NCBI RefSeq assembly: GCF_000226095.1
Contig: NC_016472.1
Location: 496,001-560,000, forward strand
Origin: Thermothelomyces thermophilus ATCC 42464
Lineage: Eukaryota > Ascomycota > Sordariomycetes > Sordariales > Chaetomiaceae
DNA length: 64,000 bases
Direction: 5' to 3'
The stretch's first letter is position 1. Each line of letters starts with the position of its first letter. Of this stretch, positions 1 to 18,000 are shown piece after piece. Made by a program: the position numbers and the translations under genes. The notes beneath the pieces were generated by a model. The model was not told the DNA's origin. It made no database searches and was given only the letters and a program-made list of their open reading frames with translations.

Positions 1-33
1 CTTTCAGAAGCAGTCTGAGTTGGGTTCGTCACA
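1..33 (+). repeat. 3' end of the 5' LTR of gypsy element 1 (cut by window edge)
   Basis: The first 33 bases match the last 33 bases of the LTR at 6718-7131, ending in TTCGTCACA. The rest of this LTR lies left of the window. The end point is confirmed by the RIPed sister element 3, where LTR and internal sequence part at the same place. Confidence 0.9.
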
Positions 34-60: not shown

Positions 61-2322
61 ATGGTTCAGAACGGAGGTGACTTCGACCTCGACATCGACA
101 TGGCTACCAACGTCACGGCCGAACAGCTGCTCGCTCAGCTTGGTCAACTCCAGCAGCGGATCCAGGAGTTGGACCAGAGAGACAAGGCTGCTCAAGCTCG
201 AATCAAGGAACTCGAGAACCGCGAAAAGTACTCGCAGAAGTTGGTCAACGAAGCCTACGCCAAAATCGAAGCGCTCGAGACCGCCAAGGCGAGCCGCATC
301 AAGATCGAACCACCTGGTAAATACGGAGGAACCAAGGAGGATCTCGCAGGATTCCTGACAAACCTCCGATCCTACTTCCGGCTCAATGACGACAAGTTTC
401 CGGACGACAAAGCCAAAGTCCTCTACGCAGCCACGAGACTAGAGGGCAAGGCACTCAGATGGTTCGAGCCTACGTGGAACGACTATCTCACGGAGGAAGA
501 CGAAGACGATCGAGACGCGTTTACACGGGCAGTCTTCCGATCTTACGACCGTTTCGAAGAAGAGCTTCGGAAAGTTTTTGGCGACAAAGACGAGAAGATT
601 CATGCGCAAGAAAGACTCGCCAATCTCCGACAGACCAAGTCAGCAGCCTCCTACGCCGCACAGTTCAGACAGGACATGCTCAAGTCTCAGCTTAACGACG
701 AGGCGTTGATGCAACTGTTCTACAACGGCTTGAAGGAAAAGGTCAAGGACGAGCTGTACAAGTACGATCGGCCTGAGACTCTGGATGAATACATCGCGCA
801 GGCCATCAGGATCGATGATCGACTCTACGCACGAGAGCAGCAGAAACGAGGTCGAATGAACGGAACCACGGTTAAGGCCAACGACAAGAAAAAGCGAGCG
901 TACGTTAGTACCTCGTACGGGACGCACCCCGGAGCCATGGATGTGGACGCAGCGCAGAAGCAGGACCAGAAGAAGGCGACCAGAGACAAGTCCAATGTTA
1001 CCTGCTACAACTGCGGAAAGAAAGGGCATTACAAGCGAGAATGCCGGAGCCCGAAGAAAGAATGGAAGCCAGTCCCTGGAAAAGAAATCGCGGACATCGA
1101 CGAAACCACCAAGAACGTCACCGAAGTAGCAGCCACGAGCTACGAAGACAAGGACAGTGACACGGACAGTCTCGGACACGACGGCAACGGTGAAGACGAA
1201 CAAGCACCGTACTCCGAACTGGTCACTGTGGACCCAGAGACAGGTCTTGCCGAATGGGACATGGCAGGAGAGTATGCGCCGCCAATTTCGATTCTCCCAA
1301 TCTTGAGGCAGTGGGGTTTCACAGTCACGCAGAGGCGGGATGGATCGTGGACAACCGACACCCAAGGAATCGAAAGACCCGGACCCAATGCTCTATTCCT
1401 CCAGGAACGAATCGAATGGTACCGCAACGAAGTTTTCCGACTCAACACGGAACTGCGCGAACGGGATGGGCGCTTGACTCGACTCGCCCAGCAGAGCGAT
1501 GAGATGAAGGACGAAATGAGGGAACTCCGACGTATCGTGGAAACCATCAAAGGGGAACAGCCTGTGACATATGATGGGCCCGATAGCTACGCCGAGCACT
1601 TTGACGATCAGCAACTCAGCCACGACGTACGGAACCCCGAGTACCAGTTCATGCGCGCGAACCGCGGAAAAGATGAGCGTACGTGGGAAAGCTACTGGAA
1701 GAAACACTCCTATGTCAGCACTGGAGTACCTACGGTCCACGTACAATGGGAAGGATTCGGGAAAGAGTTCCAATACCTTCCAGGCGACGCCACGCGACTG
1801 CACCCTCGACATGAGGCACATGCGCAAGTGCCCTGGTTCCAGTGTGTGGCACACGAATGCCGATACCACTTCCGCGACAAATTCGAAAACAACCACTGGC
1901 CGACCCGACAGGAGAACGGGGACGGAGGCTTGTGCCCTGTGGAATGGGTCTACGATGCAGGAAACAGAGCGGCCGAATTGCTTTGGAAGATCGAAGCCCG
2001 CGATCTAGAAAGCATCACGATAGTTCCAAGACGAGCCTGGCCTAGGCACTGCGGAACGGGACGAGACACATGGGACTCGTGCTGGAGCAACGATTGCCTC
2101 TATCACGCGGACGAAAAGAAATTGCGAATTCGGGAGCTTCAGATGAAGCTATGGCACGCACGACGGAAAGCAGAACGGACCCAATGGTGGGAAGCCGCAA
2201 GCACTCAATGGCTCACGGAAATGAGCACGATCGACGAAGCCGCTATCAGCCGAACAACCGAAGAGGTCAGCACTGACCTGGGAAACGGGTCAGGGCCCTT
2301 CGAGGGGCCCGGAAACCATTAA
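61..2322 (+). CDS. Gag polyprotein of Ty3/gypsy element 1
   Basis: This is a 753-residue intact frame beginning at the first ATG after the primer site. Residues 20-75 are a predicted coiled coil. Residues about 85-260 are a retrotransposon-type Gag/capsid region. A CCHC zinc knuckle follows (C315, C318, H323, C328), which binds RNA in this family. The 420 residues beyond the knuckle are unusual: a second coiled coil at about 445-498, then a Trp/Cys/His-rich region holding two CX4CX2H motifs (C595/C600/H603 and C674/C679/H682). The frame ends 46 bases into the pol frame, and a -1 frameshift signal lies in the overlap. The product would form the cytoplasmic virus-like particle. The function of the C-terminal extension is not known to me. 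Confidence 0.9.
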   Translation: MVQNGGDFDLDIDMATNVTAEQLLAQLGQLQQRIQELDQRDKAAQARIKELENREKYSQKLVNEAYAKIEALETAKASRIKIEPPGKYGGTKEDLAGFLTNLRSYFRLNDDKFPDDKAKVLYAATRLEGKALRWFEPTWNDYLTEEDEDDRDAFTRAVFRSYDRFEEELRKVFGDKDEKIHAQERLANLRQTKSAASYAAQFRQDMLKSQLNDEALMQLFYNGLKEKVKDELYKYDRPETLDEYIAQAIRIDDRLYAREQQKRGRMNGTTVKANDKKKRAYVSTSYGTHPGAMDVDAAQKQDQKKATRDKSNVTCYNCGKKGHYKRECRSPKKEWKPVPGKEIADIDETTKNVTEVAATSYEDKDSDTDSLGHDGNGEDEQAPYSELVTVDPETGLAEWDMAGEYAPPISILPILRQWGFTVTQRRDGSWTTDTQGIERPGPNALFLQERIEWYRNEVFRLNTELRERDGRLTRLAQQSDEMKDEMRELRRIVETIKGEQPVTYDGPDSYAEHFDDQQLSHDVRNPEYQFMRANRGKDERTWESYWKKHSYVSTGVPTVHVQWEGFGKEFQYLPGDATRLHPRHEAHAQVPWFQCVAHECRYHFRDKFENNHWPTRQENGDGGLCPVEWVYDAGNRAAELLWKIEARDLESITIVPRRAWPRHCGTGRDTWDSCWSNDCLYHADEKKLRIRELQMKLWHARRKAERTQWWEAASTQWLTEMSTIDEAAISRTTEEVSTDLGNGSGPFEGPGNH

Positions 2323-5300
2323 CGCCCGCGCAGCGGCGAGTGGTAGCGCAGTACAGGAGGAACTGGCGCAAGAGACCACTATACCGAGACCTCCCGGCAG
2401 AAACATGGGAAATCGCCGCAATCTTTGGACGACGGCGGCAAGACAAGCGGCTGTGGATAACAGCACAGTGGAAACAGCACGAAATGCTCGCACTAGTGGA
2501 CAGTGGAGCAGAGATGAATCTGATTTCGCCGACACTTGTGAATCAGCTGCGGATACCCTGGAGAATGAAGCGGAAGCATGGCATAGTCAAAGGGCCATTT
2601 CCGACGCAATGGGTACGCAGGGAGACCGAACCGATCGACATCACTGTGGCAGGGAAGACCACAGCAGTCGTATTCAGCATCGTGGACATGGGCAACGACA
2701 AAGACATGATATTGGGGTTACCATGGCATGAAGACTACGACCCGGACATCAGCTGGAAGAATGGTGGCCACCTGCGACCCCGAATGGAGTCGTATTCGAC
2801 CAGCGAGATGGGGAGCGCGCAAGGATCGCGAGCGGACGATGCTCAGAGAAAGGCATGTCCTACGGATCCACCGCAAGAGACGGACAGTGGCAGGCAGACC
2901 ACTACGGACTCTGGAAGAAGCGGCATAACGATACCGACGTTGCGACAGGAGGAACGAGCTGAATCGCCGATAGCTGTTCTCTCCGTTGACGAATGCGGAG
3001 CACTGCAATGGGAGCAGTGGGTTGAGACAGGAGAAATCGCCAGTATCGCCATGGACGGAACCAAGTTCGCATACTACCAGAAAACCGAGAGACGGGACAA
3101 GACTGGGGAAGTACCGAAGGAATACGAAGGACACCCAGCATTCGAACCGAAGCATCTGGAAGGATTACCAGAACACGGCCCATGGGATCACGAGATCAAG
3201 CTCAAGGAAGGAGCACGACTGAAGTTCTTCAAGATTTACCACACGAGCCAGACACAGAACGAAGAACTTAAGCGATATTTGGAGGAGAACCTTCGAAGAG
3301 GACATATCCGCCCGTCGACATCGCCAGCAGGCTACCCAATCCTGTTTGTGCCCAAGAAAGACGGAAAGCTACGGTTATGCGTCGACTATCGGCAACTCAA
3401 CGAACAGACCGTGAAAAATCGATACCCGTTACCGCTGATCTCACGGCTCCGAGATCAGTTGGCAGGAGCCCAATATTTCACGCGTCTTGACTTGCCATCG
3501 GCCTACAACCACATACGGATCAAAGAAGGCGACGAGTGGAAAACGGCCTTTAGGACACCTTATGGCCACTACGAGTACCTCGTCATGCCATTTGGACTTA
3601 CGAACGCGCCGGCAACGTTCCAAGCCCTGATTGATCAAGCTATCCGACCCTTTCTCGACAAATTTGCGGTATGTTATCTCGACGATATACTCATCTTCTC
3701 CAAGACGATGGACGAACACCGGAAGCACGTAAAAGCAGTGCTGGACGCGCTGCACGCGTACAAGCTATCAGTCAACAAGGGAAAGAGCGAATTCCACGTC
3801 AGGAAAACGGTGTTTCTGGGATACGAGATATCCCCAGGACAAATCCGGATGGAACCTTCAAAGGTTGAAGCTATCAAGAATTGGCCACGACCGACGTCAG
3901 TCACGGAAGTACGAAGCTTCATCGGATTTGCAAACTTCTACCGGATGTTCCTCAGGAACTTTGGAGCGATCGCACGACCTTTGCACGAACTTACCAAGAA
4001 GAACGCTGAATTCCAATGGGAAGAGCAACACGAGCAGGCATTTACGCAGATTCGCGACGCCATCACCGAGGATCCAGTACTGGTACTGCCAGACCCCAAG
4101 AAGCCATTCGAGGTAGAAACGGACGCTTCAGACTACGCCATCGGAGGACAATTGGGACAACGAGACGAACAAGGGAAGCTACATCCTGTAGCCTTCTTTT
4201 CAAAGAAGCTCGATGGACCACGTCTCAATTATCCGATCCACGACAAGGAACTACTTGCGATTGTCGAAGCTTTCAAGGAATGGCGACCATACCTCAGCGG
4301 CACGATTGAACCAGTACAAGTGTATACGGATCACAAGAACCTGCGATACTTCACGACGACGAAGGAACTCAACGGACGACAAATACGATGGGCAGAATTC
4401 CTCGCGGAATTCAACTTCGAGATCCGCTACAAGAAGGGCAAAGAGAACGCACGAGCGGACATCTTAAGCCGACGAACGGATCACACGAAAGGACGAACGG
4501 AAACAACGCTACCGTTATTCAAGGAACGAATAGACGGAACGCTGCATCACGAAACGCAGACACCCGTGGAAGACGATCCACTTGACTCGTTCCTAGAATG
4601 CTGCGCAATCTTTCGAGAAGAAAGGATCAACGAGGCACAGTATCAAGCAGCACCCGGACCAGTGGTACCTGACGGAGTAGAAGAGAAAGATGGGAAACTC
4701 TGGTACCGAGGCAAAGCGTACATCCACGACAAAGGTCAACAGCTGCGGATGATTCGAGAACTCCACGAGTCGAAACTCGGAGGACACAAAGGAGTTACGA
4801 AGACTGTCGCACAAGTCAAGAAACACTACGACTTTCCACAGTTGACGACACGAGTTAAGGAAGTCGTACGGAACTGCGACATCTGCAATCGGAGCAAAAC
4901 GGCACGACACAAGCCGTACGGGCTACTTCAGCCACTACCAACAGCTGACAAACCATGGAGTTCAGTTACGATGGACTTCATTACGAAGCTGCCAGAATCC
5001 AAGGACACGGCCACAGGAGTGACCTACGACAGTATTCTTACTGTAGTAGATCGCCTGACTAAGTGGGCATATTTCTTTCCCTACAAGGAGTCCTGGACAG
5101 CGGAACAGTTGGCAGACGTGATCTATCGGCAAGTTGCATCAGTGCATGCTTGGCCGCAAGAATGGATCACCGACAGAGACACCAAGTTCGCATCGAAGTT
5201 CTGGCAAGCGTTAATGCAACGATTGGGCGTTAACAGCAAGCTGTCAACGGCATATCACCCACAGACTGACGGACAAACGGAGCGACTAAACCAAGTTGTT

Positions 5301-6140
5301 GAGCAGTACCTCCGTTCTTACGTCAACTACCAGCAAAACGACTGGGTCATGCTGTTGCCAACAGCACAACTCGCTTACAACACGACGCCAACGGAGACGA
5401 CCAAAGTCACACCGTTCTTCGCGAACTACGGATATGAAGCAGACCTTAGGCAAGGACCAGAGGTCACAGTGCCAAGAGCAGCAGTCAAAGCAGAACAGAT
5501 GCACGCACTGCACGAGAAGCTCAAGAAGGAACTCGAGTTTGTCAAGACCAGAATGAAGAACTACTACGACAAACACAGGCTCGAGGGACCTCGCCTAGAG
5601 AGGGGAGATAAAGTCTACCTGATCGCACGAAACTTACGAACCAAACGACCAAGCACGAAGCTGGACTTCAAGAAGGTCGGACCCTTCGTTATCAAAGAAC
5701 GAATTTCGACATCCAACTACCGACTATCGTTACCGTCATCTATGCGACTACGGACGGATGTTTTTCATATTTCACTTCTCGAACCAGCACCAAAGAACGC
5801 CAAGGTTGCCACGCACATCGAAGCAGAGGACGAAGAGGAAGAATGGGACGTCGAAGAAATTCTGGATTCACGCATCATCAACGGAGAACTGCAGTACCTG
5901 GTCAAATGGCTTGATTTTGGGCCAGAAGACAACTCATGGGAACCAGTTAAGAACCTGAGTTGCCCCGAGAAACTTCAGCAGTTCCACCAGAGGAACCCTG
6001 ACCGACCGAAAGCGACGAACCCGAAACCAACCCGAAATCGGCCAGCAAGGACGGATCCAAAGGAACTTCAGGATACACGGCATCCCAAAGCTGTCCGAAA
6101 TCGGCGGACAGGCGAGATGGGGTCGAAGAAGACGCAGTAA
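2277..6140 (+). CDS. Pol polyprotein of element 1 (protease, RT, RNase H, integrase, chromodomain)
   Basis: The frame is intact and most likely translated as Gag-Pol by -1 frameshifting. Residues are numbered from 2340. An aspartic protease has DSGA at 54-57. The reverse transcriptase covers about 310-500 with catalytic YLDD at 446-449. RNase H starts at the Asp of TDAS (594). Integrase has an HHCC zinc domain (H809, H816, C846, C849) and a D,D,E core (D879, D945, E981). A chromodomain near 1195-1245 has the aromatic residues of YLVKW and SWEP. Chromodomains in this family steer integration to methylated-histone chromatin, which fits the nest of older copies here. The last 194 bases overlap the opposite-strand gene at 5947-6585. 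No disabling mutation is seen. Confidence 0.95.
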   Translation, partial: PGKRVRALRGARKPLTPAQRRVVAQYRRNWRKRPLYRDLPAETWEIAAIFGRRRQDKRLWITAQWKQHEMLALVDSGAEMNLISPTLVNQLRIPWRMKRKHGIVKGPFPTQWVRRETEPIDITVAGKTTAVVFSIVDMGNDKDMILGLPWHEDYDPDISWKNGGHLRPRMESYSTSEMGSAQGSRADDAQRKACPTDPPQETDSGRQTTTDSGRSGITIPTLRQEERAESPIAVLSVDECGALQWEQWVETGEIASIAMDGTKFAYYQKTERRDKTGEVPKEYEGHPAFEPKHLEGLPEHGPWDHEIKLKEGARLKFFKIYHTSQTQNEELKRYLEENLRRGHIRPSTSPAGYPILFVPKKDGKLRLCVDYRQLNEQTVKNRYPLPLISRLRDQLAGAQYFTRLDLPSAYNHIRIKEGDEWKTAFRTPYGHYEYLVMPFGLTNAPATFQALIDQAIRPFLDKFAVCYLDDILIFSKTMDEHRKHVKAVLDALHAYKLSVNKGKSEFHVRKTVFLGYEISPGQIRMEPSKVEAIKNWPRPTSVTEVRSFIGFANFYRMFLRNFGAIARPLHELTKKNAEFQWEEQHEQAFTQIRDAITEDPVLVLPDPKKPFEVETDASDYAIGGQLGQRDEQGKLHPVAFFSKKLDGPRLNYPIHDKELLAIVEAFKEWRPYLSGTIEPVQVYTDHKNLRYFTTTKELNGRQIRWAEFLAEFNFEIRYKKGKENARADILSRRTDHTKGRTETTLPLFKERIDGTLHHETQTPVEDDPLDSFLECCAIFREERINEAQYQAAPGPVVPDGVEEKDGKLWYRGKAYIHDKGQQLRMIRELHESKLGGHKGVTKTVAQVKKHYDFPQLTTRVKEVVRNCDICNRSKTARHKPYGLLQPLPTADKPWSSVTMDFITKLPESKDTATGVTYDSILTVVDRLTKWAYFFPYKESWTAEQLADVIYRQVASVHAWPQEWITDRDTKFASKFWQALMQRLGVNSKLSTAYHPQTDGQTERLNQVVEQYLRSYVNYQQNDWVMLLPTAQLAYNTTPTETTKVTPFFANYGYEADLRQGPEVTVPRAAVKAEQMHALHEKLKKELEFVKTRMKNYYDKHRLEGPRLERGDKVYLIARNLRTKRPSTKLDFKKVGPFVIKERISTSNYRLSLPSSMRLRTDVFHISLLEPAPKNAKVATHIEAEDEEEEWDVEEILDSRIINGELQYLVKWLDFGPEDNSWEPVKNLSCPEKLQQFHQRNPDRPKATNPKPTRNRPARTDPKELQDTRHPKAVRNRRTGEMGSKKTQ
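2280..2310 (+). promoter_or_regulatory. -1 programmed ribosomal frameshift signal between gag and pol
   Basis: The heptamer GGGAAAC at 2280-2286 is aligned with the gag frame as G GGA AAC, a canonical X XXY YYZ slippery site. After a 6-nt spacer comes GGGCCCTTCGAGGGGCCC (2293-2310), able to form a very GC-rich hairpin. The pol frame is open from 2277, has no ATG at its start, and lies exactly in the -1 frame. The hairpin and all but one base of the heptamer are still visible in element 3 near 15000-15032. Confidence 0.85.
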
Positions 6141-6585
6141 CCCCAGAAGCTTCCGCTGCCACCGCCGCCGCAGCCTCCTCACGTTCCACTCGCTCCAACT
6201 CCTCCACACTGTCGATACCCCGAGCGATAGCCCTCATCATCTTCTCAAACCACATTCGCTTCTGTTTCCGGAGACGAAGGACCCGCTCCTCAGCAGCCAT
6301 AAGCTCATCCTCAAGTTTTTGATGCTGAGCCGCAATAGACCGAAGCTGAGCAGGAGAAACGCCAAGAACGTCACAATTCGAACGCTTGTTGCGAACGCAC
6401 TCTGCGCATCGAGAAGAATCGCTTTTCGAAACCTCGCACGAACTAAGGCCTTTGGACTCGCACGGCGTACAAGGACGCATCGTTAAAAGATTATCCGAGG
6501 AGAGAATCGCGGCCAGGAGATGGTTGGCACGAAGAGTCGACGCAGCAGGTTTAGATTTCGACTTCTTTCTCACACGATCAGCCAT
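5947..6585 (-). CDS. Antisense accessory protein of element 1, Zn2Cys6-like
   Basis: This 212-residue frame runs opposite to gag-pol and begins with MADRV at 6585; element 2 has the same five residues at its start. The N-terminus is basic. Six cysteines follow (C39, C42, C50, C60, C63, C71; CX2CX7CX9CX2CX7C), very close to the Gal4-type binuclear zinc cluster (CX2CX6CX5-12CX2CX6-8C). Residues about 80-137 are charged and probably helical, with the motif RGIDSVEELE at 122-131. The tail is Ala/Ser-rich. The frame is open upstream to 6837 in the LTR but lacks support there. Equivalent frames, broken by RIP, occur in elements 2 and 3. A nuclear regulator of the element is my inference; a second nucleic-acid-binding structural protein is the alternative. 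Confidence 0.7.
   Translation of the reverse strand: MADRVRKKSKSKPAASTLRANHLLAAILSSDNLLTMRPCTPCESKGLSSCEVSKSDSSRCAECVRNKRSNCDVLGVSPAQLRSIAAQHQKLEDELMAAEERVLRLRKQKRMWFEKMMRAIARGIDSVEELERVEREEAAAAVAAEASGVTASSSTPSRLSADFGQLWDAVYPEVPLDPSLLADFGLVSGSSLSVGQGSSGGTAEVSRGNSGS
6373..6471 (-). other. Six-cysteine cluster coding segment of the antisense protein
   Basis: These bases encode C39 to C71 of the antisense protein. The spacing is one residue longer than the Gal4 norm in the first loop. The matching segment of element 2 (10067-10156) has exact Gal4-type spacing if Tyr codons TAT are read back to Cys codons TGT. Confidence 0.7.
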
Positions 6586-6702
6586 CTCGACAACATCGTG
6601 GGAAGGCAAAGGAAGGAAGAAACTGGGAAACGCAATTACGTACAGACAGGGGATGATGGCGCTATTTGAAACGGACCGGAGTCTTTCGAGGACGAAAGAC
6701 CT

Positions 6703-6712
6703 GAAGGAGGGG
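6703..6712 (+). promoter_or_regulatory. Polypurine tract of element 1
   Basis: GAAGGAGGGG lies five bases (CATCG) before the 3' LTR. The same purine run plus CATCG precedes the 3' LTRs of elements 2 and 3, so it is the expected plus-strand primer. Confidence 0.7.
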
Positions 6713-6717
6713 CATCG

Positions 6718-7131
6718 TGTCACGATTTGGCTGCATAAGGCGACCCGGCAAGGCGCACAGAACCAATCAGGAACCACAAGACCTAAGGACCAATCAGGAA
6801 GTGATCGCAGTGATCGCACTTCGATCAAGACGAGCACTTGGGTAACGATCGCAGGATCGCAGCAGCGATCGCACGATCAAGACTCAAGGGGGAAAGGACA
6901 AGGAAATTGTATATAGTCACTCGTTCTGGCGAACTCTGGGAGTTCACCAGTGGTAACAATCACAATCACAGTACTCATACCAAGCATTGCTGATTACTGT
7001 GAGAGACAACTCTAAGTGTTGTTGTGAACCCTTTGGCTTCACCGAATCCCTCAGACGACCTGCCTGCTTGTCCCGCTTCACCCACCTCCGTCTGGACCCT
7101 TTCAGAAGCAGTCTGAGTTGGGTTCGTCACA
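6718..7131 (+). repeat. 3' LTR of element 1 (414 bp)
   Basis: The LTR runs from TGTCACG to TTCGTCACA. Its borders are fixed by comparison with element 3. U3 (6718-6948) carries two CCAATCA boxes, five GATCGCA motifs (6803-6873) and a TATATA box at 6910-6915. R is predicted to start at 6949 with AGTGGTAACAA. A TSD cannot be tested because the left flank is outside the window; the right flank is CTTGA. Confidence 0.9.
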
Positions 7132-9720
7132 CTTGACTTGCTATTAGCCTATAACTATATATAGATCAAAGAAGGCGACGAGTAGAAAACAGCCTTTAGG
7201 ACACCCTATAGCTACTATAAGTACCTTGTCATGCTATTCGGACTTATAAATACGCTAGCAACGTTCTAAGCCCTGATTGATCAAGTTATCTGACCCTTTC
7301 TTAACAAATTTACGGTATATTATCTTGACAATATACTTATCTTCTCTAAGACGATAGACAAACACTAGAAGTATATAAAAGTAGTATTAGACATACTATA
7401 TATATATAAACTATTAGTTAATAAGGAAAAGAGTAAATTCCACGTTAGGGAAATAGTGTTTCTAGGATACAAAATATCTCTAGGACAAATCTAGATAGAA
7501 CCTTTAAAGGTTAAAGCTATTAAGAATTGGCCCTAACTGACGTTAGTTACGGAAGTACAAAGCTTTATCGGATTTGTAAACTTCTACCGGATGTTTATTA
7601 GGAACTTTAAAGCGATCGTACGACCTTTATACGAACTTACTAAGAAGAATGCTAAATTCCAATGGGAAGAGCAATACGAGTAAGCATTTATATAGATCTG
7701 TAACGCTATTACTAAAGACCTAGTACTAGTACTACCAGACCCTAAGAAGCTATTTGAGGTAGAAACGGACGCTTTAGACTACGCTATTAGAGGATAATTA
7801 GGACAACGAGACAGACAAGGAAAGCTATATCCTATAGCTTTCTTTTTAAAGAAGCTTGATAGACTACGTCTTAATTATCCGATTTATAACAAGGAACTAC
7901 TTGCGATTATTAAAGCTTTCAAGGAATAGTAACTATACCTTAGTAGTACGATTAAACTAGTATAAGTATATATAGATTATAAGAATTTGCGATACTTTAC
8001 GATAACAAAGGAGCTTAATAGATAACAAATACAATAGGCAGAATTCCTTGTAGAATTTAACTTTGAGATCCGCTATAAGAAAGGCAAAGAGAACGTACGA
8101 GCAGACATCTTAAGTCGACAAACGGATCACACGGAAGGACGAACGGGAATAACACTTTCGTTATTTAAGGAACGAACAGATAGAACGCTACATCATAAAA
8201 CGTAGACACCTGTAGAAGATAATCTACTTGACTTGTTCCTAGAATGCTATATAATCTTTTAAGAAGAAAGGATTAACAAGGTATAGTATTAAGTAGTACC
8301 CGGACTATTAGTACCTAATGGAGTAGAAGAAAGAGATGGGAAACTCTAGTACCGAGGCAAAGCGTATATCTACGACAAAGATCAATAGCTATAGATGATT
8401 TGAGAACTCTACAAGTCGAAACTCGGGGGATATAAAGGAGTCACGAAGACTATTATATAAGTCAAGAAACACTACGACTTTCTACAGTTAATGGCACGAG
8501 TTAAGGAAGTTATATAAAGTTGCGACATCTGTAATTAGAACAAAACGGCGTAATATAAGCTATATAGGCTACTTTAGCCACTGCTAACAGCTAACAAACT
8601 ATAGAGTTTAATTATAATAGACTTTATTACGAAGCTACTAGAGTCTAAGGATATAGCTATAGGAGTGACCTATGATAGTATTCTTACTATAGTAGACTGC
8701 CTAACTAAGTAGGTATACTTCTTTCCCTACAAAGAGTCCTAGACAGCGGAACAGTTAGCAGATGTAATCTATTGGTAAGTTATATCAGTATATACTTAGC
8801 CGCAAGAATAGATCACCGATAGAGATATAAAGTTCGCGTCGAAGTTCTAGCAAGCGTTAATATAACGATTAGGCGTTAATAGTAAGCTGTTAACGGCATA
8901 TTACCTACAGACTGACGGACAAATAGAGCGACTAAACCAAGTTATTAAGCAGTACCTCTGCTCTTACGTTAACTACTAGCAAAACGACTAGGTCATGCTA
9001 TTGCCAATAGTATAACTTGCCTACAATACGACGCCAACGGAAACGACTAAAGTTACACCGTTCTTCGCAAACTATAGATATAAAGCAGACCTTAGGCAAG
9101 GACTAGAGGTCATAGTGCCAAGAGTAGCAGTCAAAGTAGAACAGATGTACACATTATATGAGAAGCTTAAAAAGGAACTCGAGTTTGTCAAAACCAGAAT
9201 GAAGAACTACTACGACAAATATAGGCTTAAGGGACCTTGCCTAGAGAAGGGAGACAAAGTCTACCTAATTATACGAAATTTACGAACTAAATGACTAAGT
9301 ATAAAGCTAGACTTTAAGAAGGTTAGACCCTTCGTTATTAAAGAATAAATTTCGATATCTAACTACCGACTATTATTACTATTATCTATATGACTATAGA
9401 TAGATGTTTTTTATATTTCACTTCTTAAACTAGTACCGAAAAACGCCAAGGTTACTACGTATATCAAAGTAGAAGACAAGGAAGAAAAATAGGATGTCGA
9501 AGAAATTCTAGATTTATATATTATTAATAGAGAACTATAGTACCTAGTTAAATAGCTTAATTTTAGACTAGAAGATAACTTATAGGAACTAGTTAAGAAC
9601 TTAAACTACCTTAAGAAACTGGAACAGTTCTACTGGCAGAACCCGGATCGACCGCAGGCACTAGCTTGGACAAAACGGCCAAGTCAGCCTCCGACAAATC
9701 TAGGCCTAAAGAAGACTAGT
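7132..9720 (+). pseudogene. RIPed pol relic of element 2 (RT to chromodomain)
   Basis: The sequence matches element 1 from 3486 onward, almost entirely with C-to-T and G-to-A differences that create many TAG/TAA stops. This is the signature of RIP. The part left of RT is absent because element 1 inserted here; the missing 5' half should lie left of the window. RT, RNase H, integrase and the start of the chromodomain are recognisable. Similarity to element 1 falls sharply after the chromodomain, near 9600-9720. Confidence 0.9.
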
Positions 9721-15044: not shown

Positions 15045-18000
15045 CGCCTGTATAGTAGCGAGTAGTAGCATAGTATAGGAGGAACTAGCGTAAGAAACTA
15101 CTATATCGAGACCTCCCGGCAGAAACATAGGAAATCGCTATAATCTTTAGACGACGGTAGTAAGATAAGTAACTATAGATAATAGTATAATAGGGATAGC
15201 ACGAAATGCTTATATTAGTAGATAGTAGAGTAGAGATAAACCTAATTTTGCCGACGTTTGTAAATTAGCTATAGATACCCTAGAGAATGAAGTGGAAGCA
15301 TAGCATAGTCAAAGGGCCATTTCTAACGTAATAGGTATATAGGGAGACTAAACCGATCGATATCACTATGACAGGGAAAACTATAGTAGTCGTATTTAGC
15401 ATCGTAGATATAGGCAACGATAAAGATATAATATTAGGATTACCATAGTATAAAGATTACAACCTAGACATTAGCTAGAAGAATAGTAGCTACCTATGAC
15501 CCTAATTAGAATCGTATTTAACTAGTAAGATAGGAAGCGTATAAGGATTATAAGCAGACGATGCTTAAGGGAAGGTATATCCTATAGATCTACTATAAGA
15601 GACGGACAGTGGTAGGCAGACTATTATAGACTCTAGAAGAAGCGGTATAACGACACCGACATTACGATAGGAGGAACAAGCTAAACCTCCGATAGCTGTT
15701 CTCTCCGTTAATAAATATAGAGTACTATAACTAGAGTAGTAGGTTAAGATAGGAGAAATCGCTAGTATTGCTATAGACGGAACCAAGTTTGTATATTATT
15801 AGAAAGCCGAGAGATGAGACAAGACTAGGGAAGTACCAAGGGAATACGAAGGACACCTAATATTCGAACCAAAGTATCTAGAAGGATTACTAGAATACGG
15901 CCTATAGGATTATAAGATTAAGCTTAAGGAAGGAGCATGACTAAAGTTCTTTAAGATTTACTATATGAGCTAGATATAGAATAAAGAACTTAAGCGATAC
16001 TTGGAGGAAAACCTTTAAAGAGAATATATCTACCTATCAACATCGCTAGTAGGCTACCTAATTCTATTTATGCCTAAGAAAGATAGAAAGCTACGGTTAT
16101 ATATTAACTATTAGTAACTTAACGAACAGACTATAAAAAACCGATACCTATTATTACTAATCTCACAGCTCTAAGATTAGTTAACAAGAGCCTAATATTT
16201 TACGCGTCTTAACTTGCCATCGGCCTATAACTATATATAGATTAAAGAAGGCGACAAGTAGAAAACGGCCTTTAGGACACCCTATGGCCACTACAAGTAC
16301 CTTGTCATGCCATTTGGACTTACGAACACGCTAGTAACGTTCTAAGCCCTAATTAATCAAGCTATCCGACCCTTTCTTAACAAATTTACGGTATATTATC
16401 TCGACGACATACTTATCTTCTCTAAGACAATAGACAAACACCGGAAGTATATAAGAATGGTACTAAATATATTATATATATATAAGCTATTAGTTAACAA
16501 GGAAAAGAGCAAATTCTATATTAGGAAGATAGTGTTTCTAGGATATAAAATATCCCTAGGACAAATCCGGATAGAACCCTTAAAGGTTAAAGCTATCAAG
16601 GATTAGCTATAACTAACGTTAGTTATAGAAGTACGAAGTTTCATCAGGTTTACGAACTTCTACCAGATGTTCATTAGGAACTTTAGAGCGATCGTACAAC
16701 CTTTATACAAATTTACCAAGAAGAATGCTAAATTCTAATAGGAAGAATAGCACGAGCAAGCATTTATATAGATCTGTGACGCCACTACTAAAGATCTAGT
16801 ACTAGTATTACCAGACCCTAAGAAGCCATTTAAGGTAGAAATAGACGCTTTAGACTATGCCATTAGAGGATAGTTAGGATAATAAGATAAATAAGGGAAG
16901 CTACATCCCATAGCCTTCTTTTTAAAGAAGCTTGATAGACTATATCTTAATTATCTAATCTATAACAAGGAACTACTTATAATTGTTAAAGCTTTTAAGG
17001 AATAGCAACTATACCTTAGTAGTATAATTAAACTAGTATAAGTATATATAGATTATAAGAATTTACGGTACTTTATAACGACAAAGGAGCTTAATAGATA
17101 ATAAATATAATAGGTAGAATTCCTTATAGAATTTAATTTTAAGATCTACTATAAGAAGGGTAAAGAGAACGTATAAGCAGACGCCTTAAGCCGATAAACA
17201 GATTATATAGAAGGACGAATAGAAATAACGCCACCGTTATTCAAAGAACGAATAGATAGAACGCTATATTATAAAACGTAAACACCTATAGAAGATAACC
17301 TACTCGACTTATTCCTAGAATGTTATATAATCTTTCAAGAAGAAAGGATTAACAAGATATAATATCAAGTAGCACCTAGACCGGTGGTACCTGATGGAGT
17401 GGAAGAAAAAGATGGGAAACTCTAGTACCGAGGCAAAGTATATATCTATAATAGGAATCAATAGCTATAAATGATTTGAGAACTCTATAAATCGAAACTC
17501 GGAGGATATAAAGGAGTTACGAAGACTGTTACACAAGTCAAGAAGCATTATAACTTTCTATAGCTAACGATATAAGTTAAGGAAGTTATATAGAGCTATA
17601 ATATCTGTAATCGAAGCAAAACAGCACGATACAAACCATATAGGCTACTTTAGCTACTGCTAACAGCTGATAAACTATAGAGTTTAGTTACAATAGACTT
17701 TGTCACGAAATTGCTAGAATCTAAGGACATAGCTATAGGGGTAATCTATAATAGTATTCTTACTATAGTAGATTGCCTAACTAAATAGGTATACTTCTTT
17801 CCCTACAAGGAGTCCTAGATAGCTAAATAGCTAGTAGACGTGATCTATCGGCAAGTCGTATTAGTATACGCTTAGCTACAAGAATAGATCACCGATAGAG
17901 ATACTAAGTTCGTATCGAAGTTCTAGCAAGCGTTAATATAATAATTAGGCATTAATAGCAAGCTGTTAATAGCATATTACCTACAAACCGACAGACAAAT

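Follow-up and report, generated by a model that had tools for sequence, protein, structure and literature searches.

The window analysed here, a stretch of 64,000 nucleotides of Thermothelomyces thermophilus ATCC 42464 (NC_016472.1, positions 496,001 to 560,000), opens within a retrotransposon that carries a long open reading frame on the strand opposite to gag and pol, and this raises two questions: is that frame a gene and, if so, what might a mobile element gain from a product resembling a fungal zinc-cluster protein? The element (element A) is a young Ty3/gypsy chromovirus in which Pfam identifies gag (61..2322, plus strand; Retrotrans_gag and a zinc knuckle) and pol (2340..6140, plus strand; protease, RT, RNase H, integrase and a C-terminal chromodomain). 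All domains score above their cut-offs save the integrase core rve, which lies slightly under it (30.9 vs 32.6 bits). Both LTRs are identical, 414 bp long and delimited by TG...CA. The 5' LTR (L009:621-1034) reaches into the window only with its end (1..33, plus strand), the remainder lying to the left (L009:621-1001), and the 3' LTR occupies 6718..7131 (plus strand), the TSD CTTGA flanking the element on both sides (7132-7136 on the right). With an approximate boundary, the 3' LTR can be divided into a U3 part (6718..6913), strongly diverged among A and its relatives A2 and B and presumed to hold the antisense promoter, and an R-U5 part (6914..7131, plus strand), nearly identical between A and B. 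The DNA to the right of the element (7132-7431) matches the element's own pol region at 80%, with related positions at 16208-16507 and 3486-3785, so that the site where element A landed was probably an older, damaged relative.

According to the original prediction, an intact 212-codon gene lies between pol and the 3' LTR and overlaps pol by 194 bp, and its coordinates are borne out: on the minus strand, the ORF (P0001) runs from an ATG at 6585 to a stop ending at 5947, as given by the ORF list and by 15 genomic matches that span it in full without a stop. It shares 194 bp with pol (5947..6140, both strands), and the other 445 bp (6141..6585, minus strand) code on the antisense strand only. The start codon stands 132 bp from the 3' LTR, behind an indel-rich non-coding spacer (6586..6717) that is presumably the 5' UTR of an antisense transcript. 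At 6596 (minus strand), 11 bases ahead of the antisense ATG, there is a further ATG, out of frame, that could open a short upstream frame. The three features first described for the product are likewise present, namely six cysteines with near-Gal4 spacing (residues 39, 42, 50, 60, 63 and 71, spacing 2-7-9-2-7, that is, C-x2-C-x7-C-x9-C-x2-C-x7-C by residue count; 6373..6471, minus strand), a helical region, modelled by AlphaFold2 as a long, coiled-coil-like helix (residues 78-121; 6223..6354, minus strand; block pLDDT 85-95 over residues 81-120), and the motif RGIDSVEE (residues 122-129; 6199..6222, minus strand), whose equivalent at the same place in subfamily B is RGLSTLDE.

Does the frame behave as a gene? 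The antisense protein gave 71 matches in the genome (38,744,216 bases, 7 contigs), 15 of them full-length and stop-free and nearly all the others interrupted by stops, mostly TAG, which is the pattern that RIP would leave; the final two of the 71 (one stop-free) are weak and fall inside matches of subfamily B. With 18 further genes of type B, this single genome holds 33 stop-free antisense genes, which makes their role directly testable. As A and B are too diverged for dN/dS, and RIPed copies distort it, transversions and indels were used in its place: each copy, represented by its best aligned piece alone, was aligned to the window and its changes were tallied region by region, leaving out L019 and L020, duplicates of L032 and L034. 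Among 40 RIPed A copies, distinct indels amounted to none in 843 bp of pol, none in the 194-bp overlap and one (6 bp, in frame) in the 445 bp of antisense-only coding sequence, and, beyond the antisense start, to 18 in 133 bp of spacer (6586-6718) and 46 in 409 bp of LTR (Fisher p 2e-11 for the antisense-only part vs the spacer, and 3e-14 in a second test, with spacer and LTR lengths taken as 132 and 414). Indel protection stops at the antisense start codon.

Since those 40 copies had been picked through their antisense-protein matches, the count was repeated on the 18 that a search with pol alone recovers as well, with the same outcome: no indels in pol, in the overlap or in the antisense-only part, 9 in the spacer (6586-6717) and 30 in the LTR. 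The best 117 of 1007 pol candidates include 22 RIPed A-type copies, 21 with a full or near-full antisense match (by eye) and one that retains antisense residues 126-212 only; four of the 22 stand outside the indel count, two belonging to group A2 and two, among them the copy with residues 126-212, not having been fetched. RIP makes no transversions, and those common to at least two of the 40 copies fall 2/2/7 on minus-frame codon positions 1/2/3 (7/11 at the third; p 0.04, one-sided), the pol control giving 6/1/11 in its own frame. This third-position excess is small and weak by itself, and it points in the same direction as the indels. The five A2 copies, if included, contribute 13 more distinct gaps to the antisense-only part, and for 8 of these the length is no multiple of three; A2 has diverged so far in this stretch that it aligns poorly. 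By tblastn, all five are readable in one frame over residues 1-212. ORF length says less than conservation: at least 212 amino acids are reached in 7 of 5000 dinucleotide shuffles of 5947-6717 (three minus-strand frames), and the better evidence is the set of stop-free copies, the near-lack of indels and the homologues in sister subfamilies. Taken together, the evidence supports a real gene under coding constraint that encodes a Zn2Cys6-like cluster, and constraint on the minus strand outside the pol overlap shows in the indels and, weakly, in the transversions of the RIPed copies.

These homologues belong to subfamily B and family C. Subfamily B comprises at least 18 copies stop-free in the compared pol part, with 94-95% identity to A over 320 amino acids; copy L023 is 96.3% identical to A over 5972 bp of gag-pol, and the differences are mostly third-position. 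Its antisense gene is distantly homologous to that of A and comes in two pieces (two-sequence BLASTP E 1e-11 and 2e-6; identity 31% and 36%), with cysteines and motif kept, and the first piece has a cysteine spacing of 2-6-8-2-6, the exact Gal4-type pattern (counted by eye). In family C the homologue also comes in two pieces (tblastn; 13 RIPed copies read), and the copy L030, in which all six cysteines survive, shows the same 2-6-8-2-6 (by eye); a substitution comparison in this family offers two informative columns only, its copies being RIPed and too alike. When A and B are compared in all six frames, the antisense frame scores best (55.8 bits), with two plus-frame pairs at 48.5 and 38.5 and another minus pair at 31.6, and since several frame pairs score, the comparison does not discriminate. 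Searches for relatives outside this genome, in viral contigs (protein and alignment) and genome contigs, returned pattern matches and no relative, and a sequence search of the PDB with the antisense protein gave nothing relevant.

What separates the two pieces looks like an intron of the minus strand. In 18/18 intact B copies the break starts with GTAAGC, contains a long T run and ends with TAG; it is 66-80 nt long, and in 9/18 copies the length is not a multiple of three (70 in L073, by hand), whereas the exon pieces are constant in length and identical across the 18 copies save for one third-position change in one of them. In C, the gap at the matching place measures 49-50 nt, with GT in 11/13 copies, TAG in 11/13 and a 1-nt length change in 4/13, and its phase agrees with that of B (by eye). 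The two breaks are putatively one old intron, absent from A. A length that varies while the exon pieces keep theirs suggests that the minus strand gives a spliced transcript of its own, and so does the retention of the break itself, as retrotransposition would remove an intron from the sense strand. Judged from these sequences, the antisense gene is probably transcribed and spliced apart from the other genes of the element, and the putative intron provides a clean test of expression, given that its removal could come only from an antisense transcript. The T run spans 19-33 bases and varies between L072, L074-L083, L023-L027 and L031 despite identical exon pieces, differences that could equally reflect replication slippage or assembly error. 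The same run could act as a copy tag.

How far, then, does the product resemble the Zn2Cys6 proteins? The pattern of these clusters (Zn_clus, PF00172) is C-x2-C-x6-C-x5..12-C-x2-C-x6..8-C, from which the window copy departs by a first loop one residue too long; the Pfam search for Zn_clus gave no match for it, and the first piece of B reached 13.6 bits, below the gathering cut-off of 21. The AlphaFold2 model of the A protein (pLDDT 66.6) places a short helix after each CxxC and is confident for the long helix 78-121, and that of the first B piece (pLDDT 57.8) has the same two short helices; the MAFFT alignment supplied for structure prediction had the second B piece misplaced. Against the PDB, Foldseek returned Leu3 as the top of two matches for A (E 7.6, not significant) and Put3 as the sole match for the B piece (E 4.5, not significant), both of them Zn2Cys6 DNA-binding domains. 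Given the weak Foldseek and Pfam support, the protein is termed here Zn2Cys6-like and not a member of PF00172. The original claim of a Zn2Cys6-like product thus stands in part: the exact spacing in B and C and the non-significant matches to Leu3 and Put3 speak for it, and the off-pattern spacing of the window copy, with no Zn_clus match, speaks against it. Basic residues between the second and third cysteines are typical of Gal4-type clusters, and (by eye) there is one in A, none in B and two in C and A2. The 20 N-terminal residues carry a net charge of +6 in A and +4 in B, and towards its C-terminus the protein is acidic and has aromatic residues, although this part lies opposite pol, whose coding may have produced it as a by-product. 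As modelled, the layout would suit a small dimeric nuclear DNA-binding protein, with a basic N-terminus, the cluster, a coiled-coil-like helix, an RGxxSxEE-type motif and a tail. In common with Gal4, Leu3 and Put3, there are the cysteine pattern (exact in B and C), the short helix after each CxxC and, in the A model, the coiled-coil-like helix that comes next; unlike them, the antisense product falls under the Pfam threshold, has few basic residues between cysteines 2 and 3 in A and B, has no large regulatory domain and is coded by a retrotransposon.

The zinc-bearing half of the gene varies together with U3. A and B are 96% identical in gag-pol and agree in 99/100 positions of one R-U5 block, whereas between about 6011 and 6913 (antisense gene, spacer and U3) their DNA is mostly 40-47% identical, with 73/100 at the LTR start. 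The five A2 copies differ from A by few transversions up to about 6200, by many through the zinc half and U3, and again by few from 6900, the number being lower at 6600-6799 than in the rest of that stretch; for the zinc half, this comparison is a full alignment in L011 and L012 only and a partial one in L013. The A/B and A/A2 mosaics differ in their left breakpoint and nearly share the right one. This geometry would fit a strong-stop transfer onto a second packaged RNA and then a single crossover, and the switch of the zinc half together with U3 in two mosaics, with gag-pol and R-U5 nearly unchanged, is what template switching would give. A bolder reading of the same sequences, which we consider rather doubtful, is that a zinc-cluster transcription factor from a spliced 3'-LTR transcript would recognise its own U3, so that gene and U3 would form a lock-and-key cassette passed on whole from lineage to lineage by template switching; each lineage would then regulate itself privately and might escape cross-regulation by its relatives. 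Further recombination inside pol is hinted at by 6 clustered transversions at 5600-5699 that some A and A2 copies carry and others lack.

U3 also contains short repeats. GATCGC/GCGATC occurs six times in that of A (6803-6872), a count reached in 0/2000 shuffles, and GGTGATAA three times in that of B, reached in 5/2000. In the U3 of RIPed A copies, transversions are 21.7 per kb in the bases of the GATCGC motif vs 11.9 in other U3 bases; GATCGC is not conserved in these copies, and the repeats were dropped as candidate binding sites.

Are antisense genes in this position new? The retrovirus HTLV-1 encodes HBZ, a bZIP antisense regulator started from the 3' LTR, which resembles the present case in logic only, with no homology claimed. 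Closer at hand, Zhao et al. (2011, Virology) reportedly described Boty-like elements of Botrytis cinerea carrying an antisense gene, brtn. The view of the original prediction that a gene of this kind lies outside the established parts of these elements is not supported as it stands, as brtn is already published as an additional antisense gene in Boty elements of Botrytis and Sclerotinia (PMC7264820, PMC8365987, PMC4227169, PMC5987419, in the portions available). Boty resembles element A in being an ascomycete chromodomain-bearing element (PMC4227169) with its antisense gene between pol and the 3' LTR (PMC7264820), a comparison made by description. In plants, the aORF-3R genes (Grande gene23, RIRE2, Retand, PvRetro13) share this location and are present in most copies, and the Grande product is nuclear; they differ in that the accessible part of the review describes no clear protein similarity save an SMC domain in PvRetro13 and mentions no zinc cluster (PMC7264820). 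Spliced antisense transcripts of transposable elements are also recorded in another ascomycete, Blumeria hordei, where 823 lncRNAs arise from the antisense strand of such elements, Ty3 included, and some are spliced, with the difference that the available text terms them without meaningful peptides (PMC10648671). The antisense arrangement itself is therefore already known in a few plant and fungal Ty3 elements. A literature search over titles and abstract openings, with most subscription papers outside it, recognised no zinc cluster in such a gene, and the zinc-cluster nature, the antisense intron and the exchange of zinc half and U3 go beyond what that search found described. The known antisense genes beside pol mostly lacked a biochemical identity; the present one joins a constrained frame with a recognisable and likely DNA-binding module.

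The reading that we find fairly probable is that the frame is an accessory protein gene of a fungal Ty3/gypsy chromovirus lineage, expressed from the minus strand by a transcript of its own. RNA polymerase II would initiate on the antisense strand within either the 3'-LTR U3 or the 132-bp spacer, and the transcripts of B and C, to judge from their GT...AG signals, would be spliced; the genomic RNA, of the opposite strand, would stay unspliced at that place, so that the intron survives retrotransposition. The product would most likely bind DNA of the element, probably U3, and tune its expression or chromatin, a role to which we give about an even chance.

Must the protein be a regulator? It could instead be a structural or accessory factor, acting in RNA or Gag binding, in nuclear import of the pre-integration complex or in integration targeting together with the chromodomain, which we regard as possible though unlikely. 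Nucleic-acid binding of that sort would also fit the basic character of the N-terminus and of the cluster's second half, the match to Gal4-type proteins is weak, and the review of plant elements suggests accessory roles alongside the nuclear Grande product (PMC7264820, as far as available); against this, in both mosaics the zinc half goes along with U3 rather than with gag-pol, a hint of a partner in U3 for which, however, template-switch geometry alone could suffice. Less probable still, and in our view improbable, is that the antisense strand acts as a non-coding RNA pairing with the genomic RNA and feeding small-RNA silencing, the frame being incidental. The spliced lncRNAs of Blumeria hordei (PMC10648671, available text) and the formation of dsRNA, named as a possible role in the accessible part of the plant-element review (PMC7264820), give this idea some footing, yet it needs neither a nearly indel-free frame of 445 bp outside pol beside 18 indels in the next 133 bp nor cysteines conserved across A, B and C; coding and non-coding roles could, besides, coexist. 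That the ORF is a functionless by-product of pol coding and chance is highly improbable, for although the frame partly overlaps pol and shuffles occasionally produce one as long (7/5000), its 445 bp outside pol are guarded against indels, homologues at 31% and 36% identity retain cysteines and motif, and B and C have an intron-like break at a matching place.

Two further loci place antisense genes of different types close together. Within 4.4 kb, L011:1-4358 holds a B antisense gene that is undamaged but truncated by the end of the locus, together with one RIPed copy each of B and A2, and in L016:3780-5399 antisense genes of A2 and C type adjoin, which suggests nested elements.
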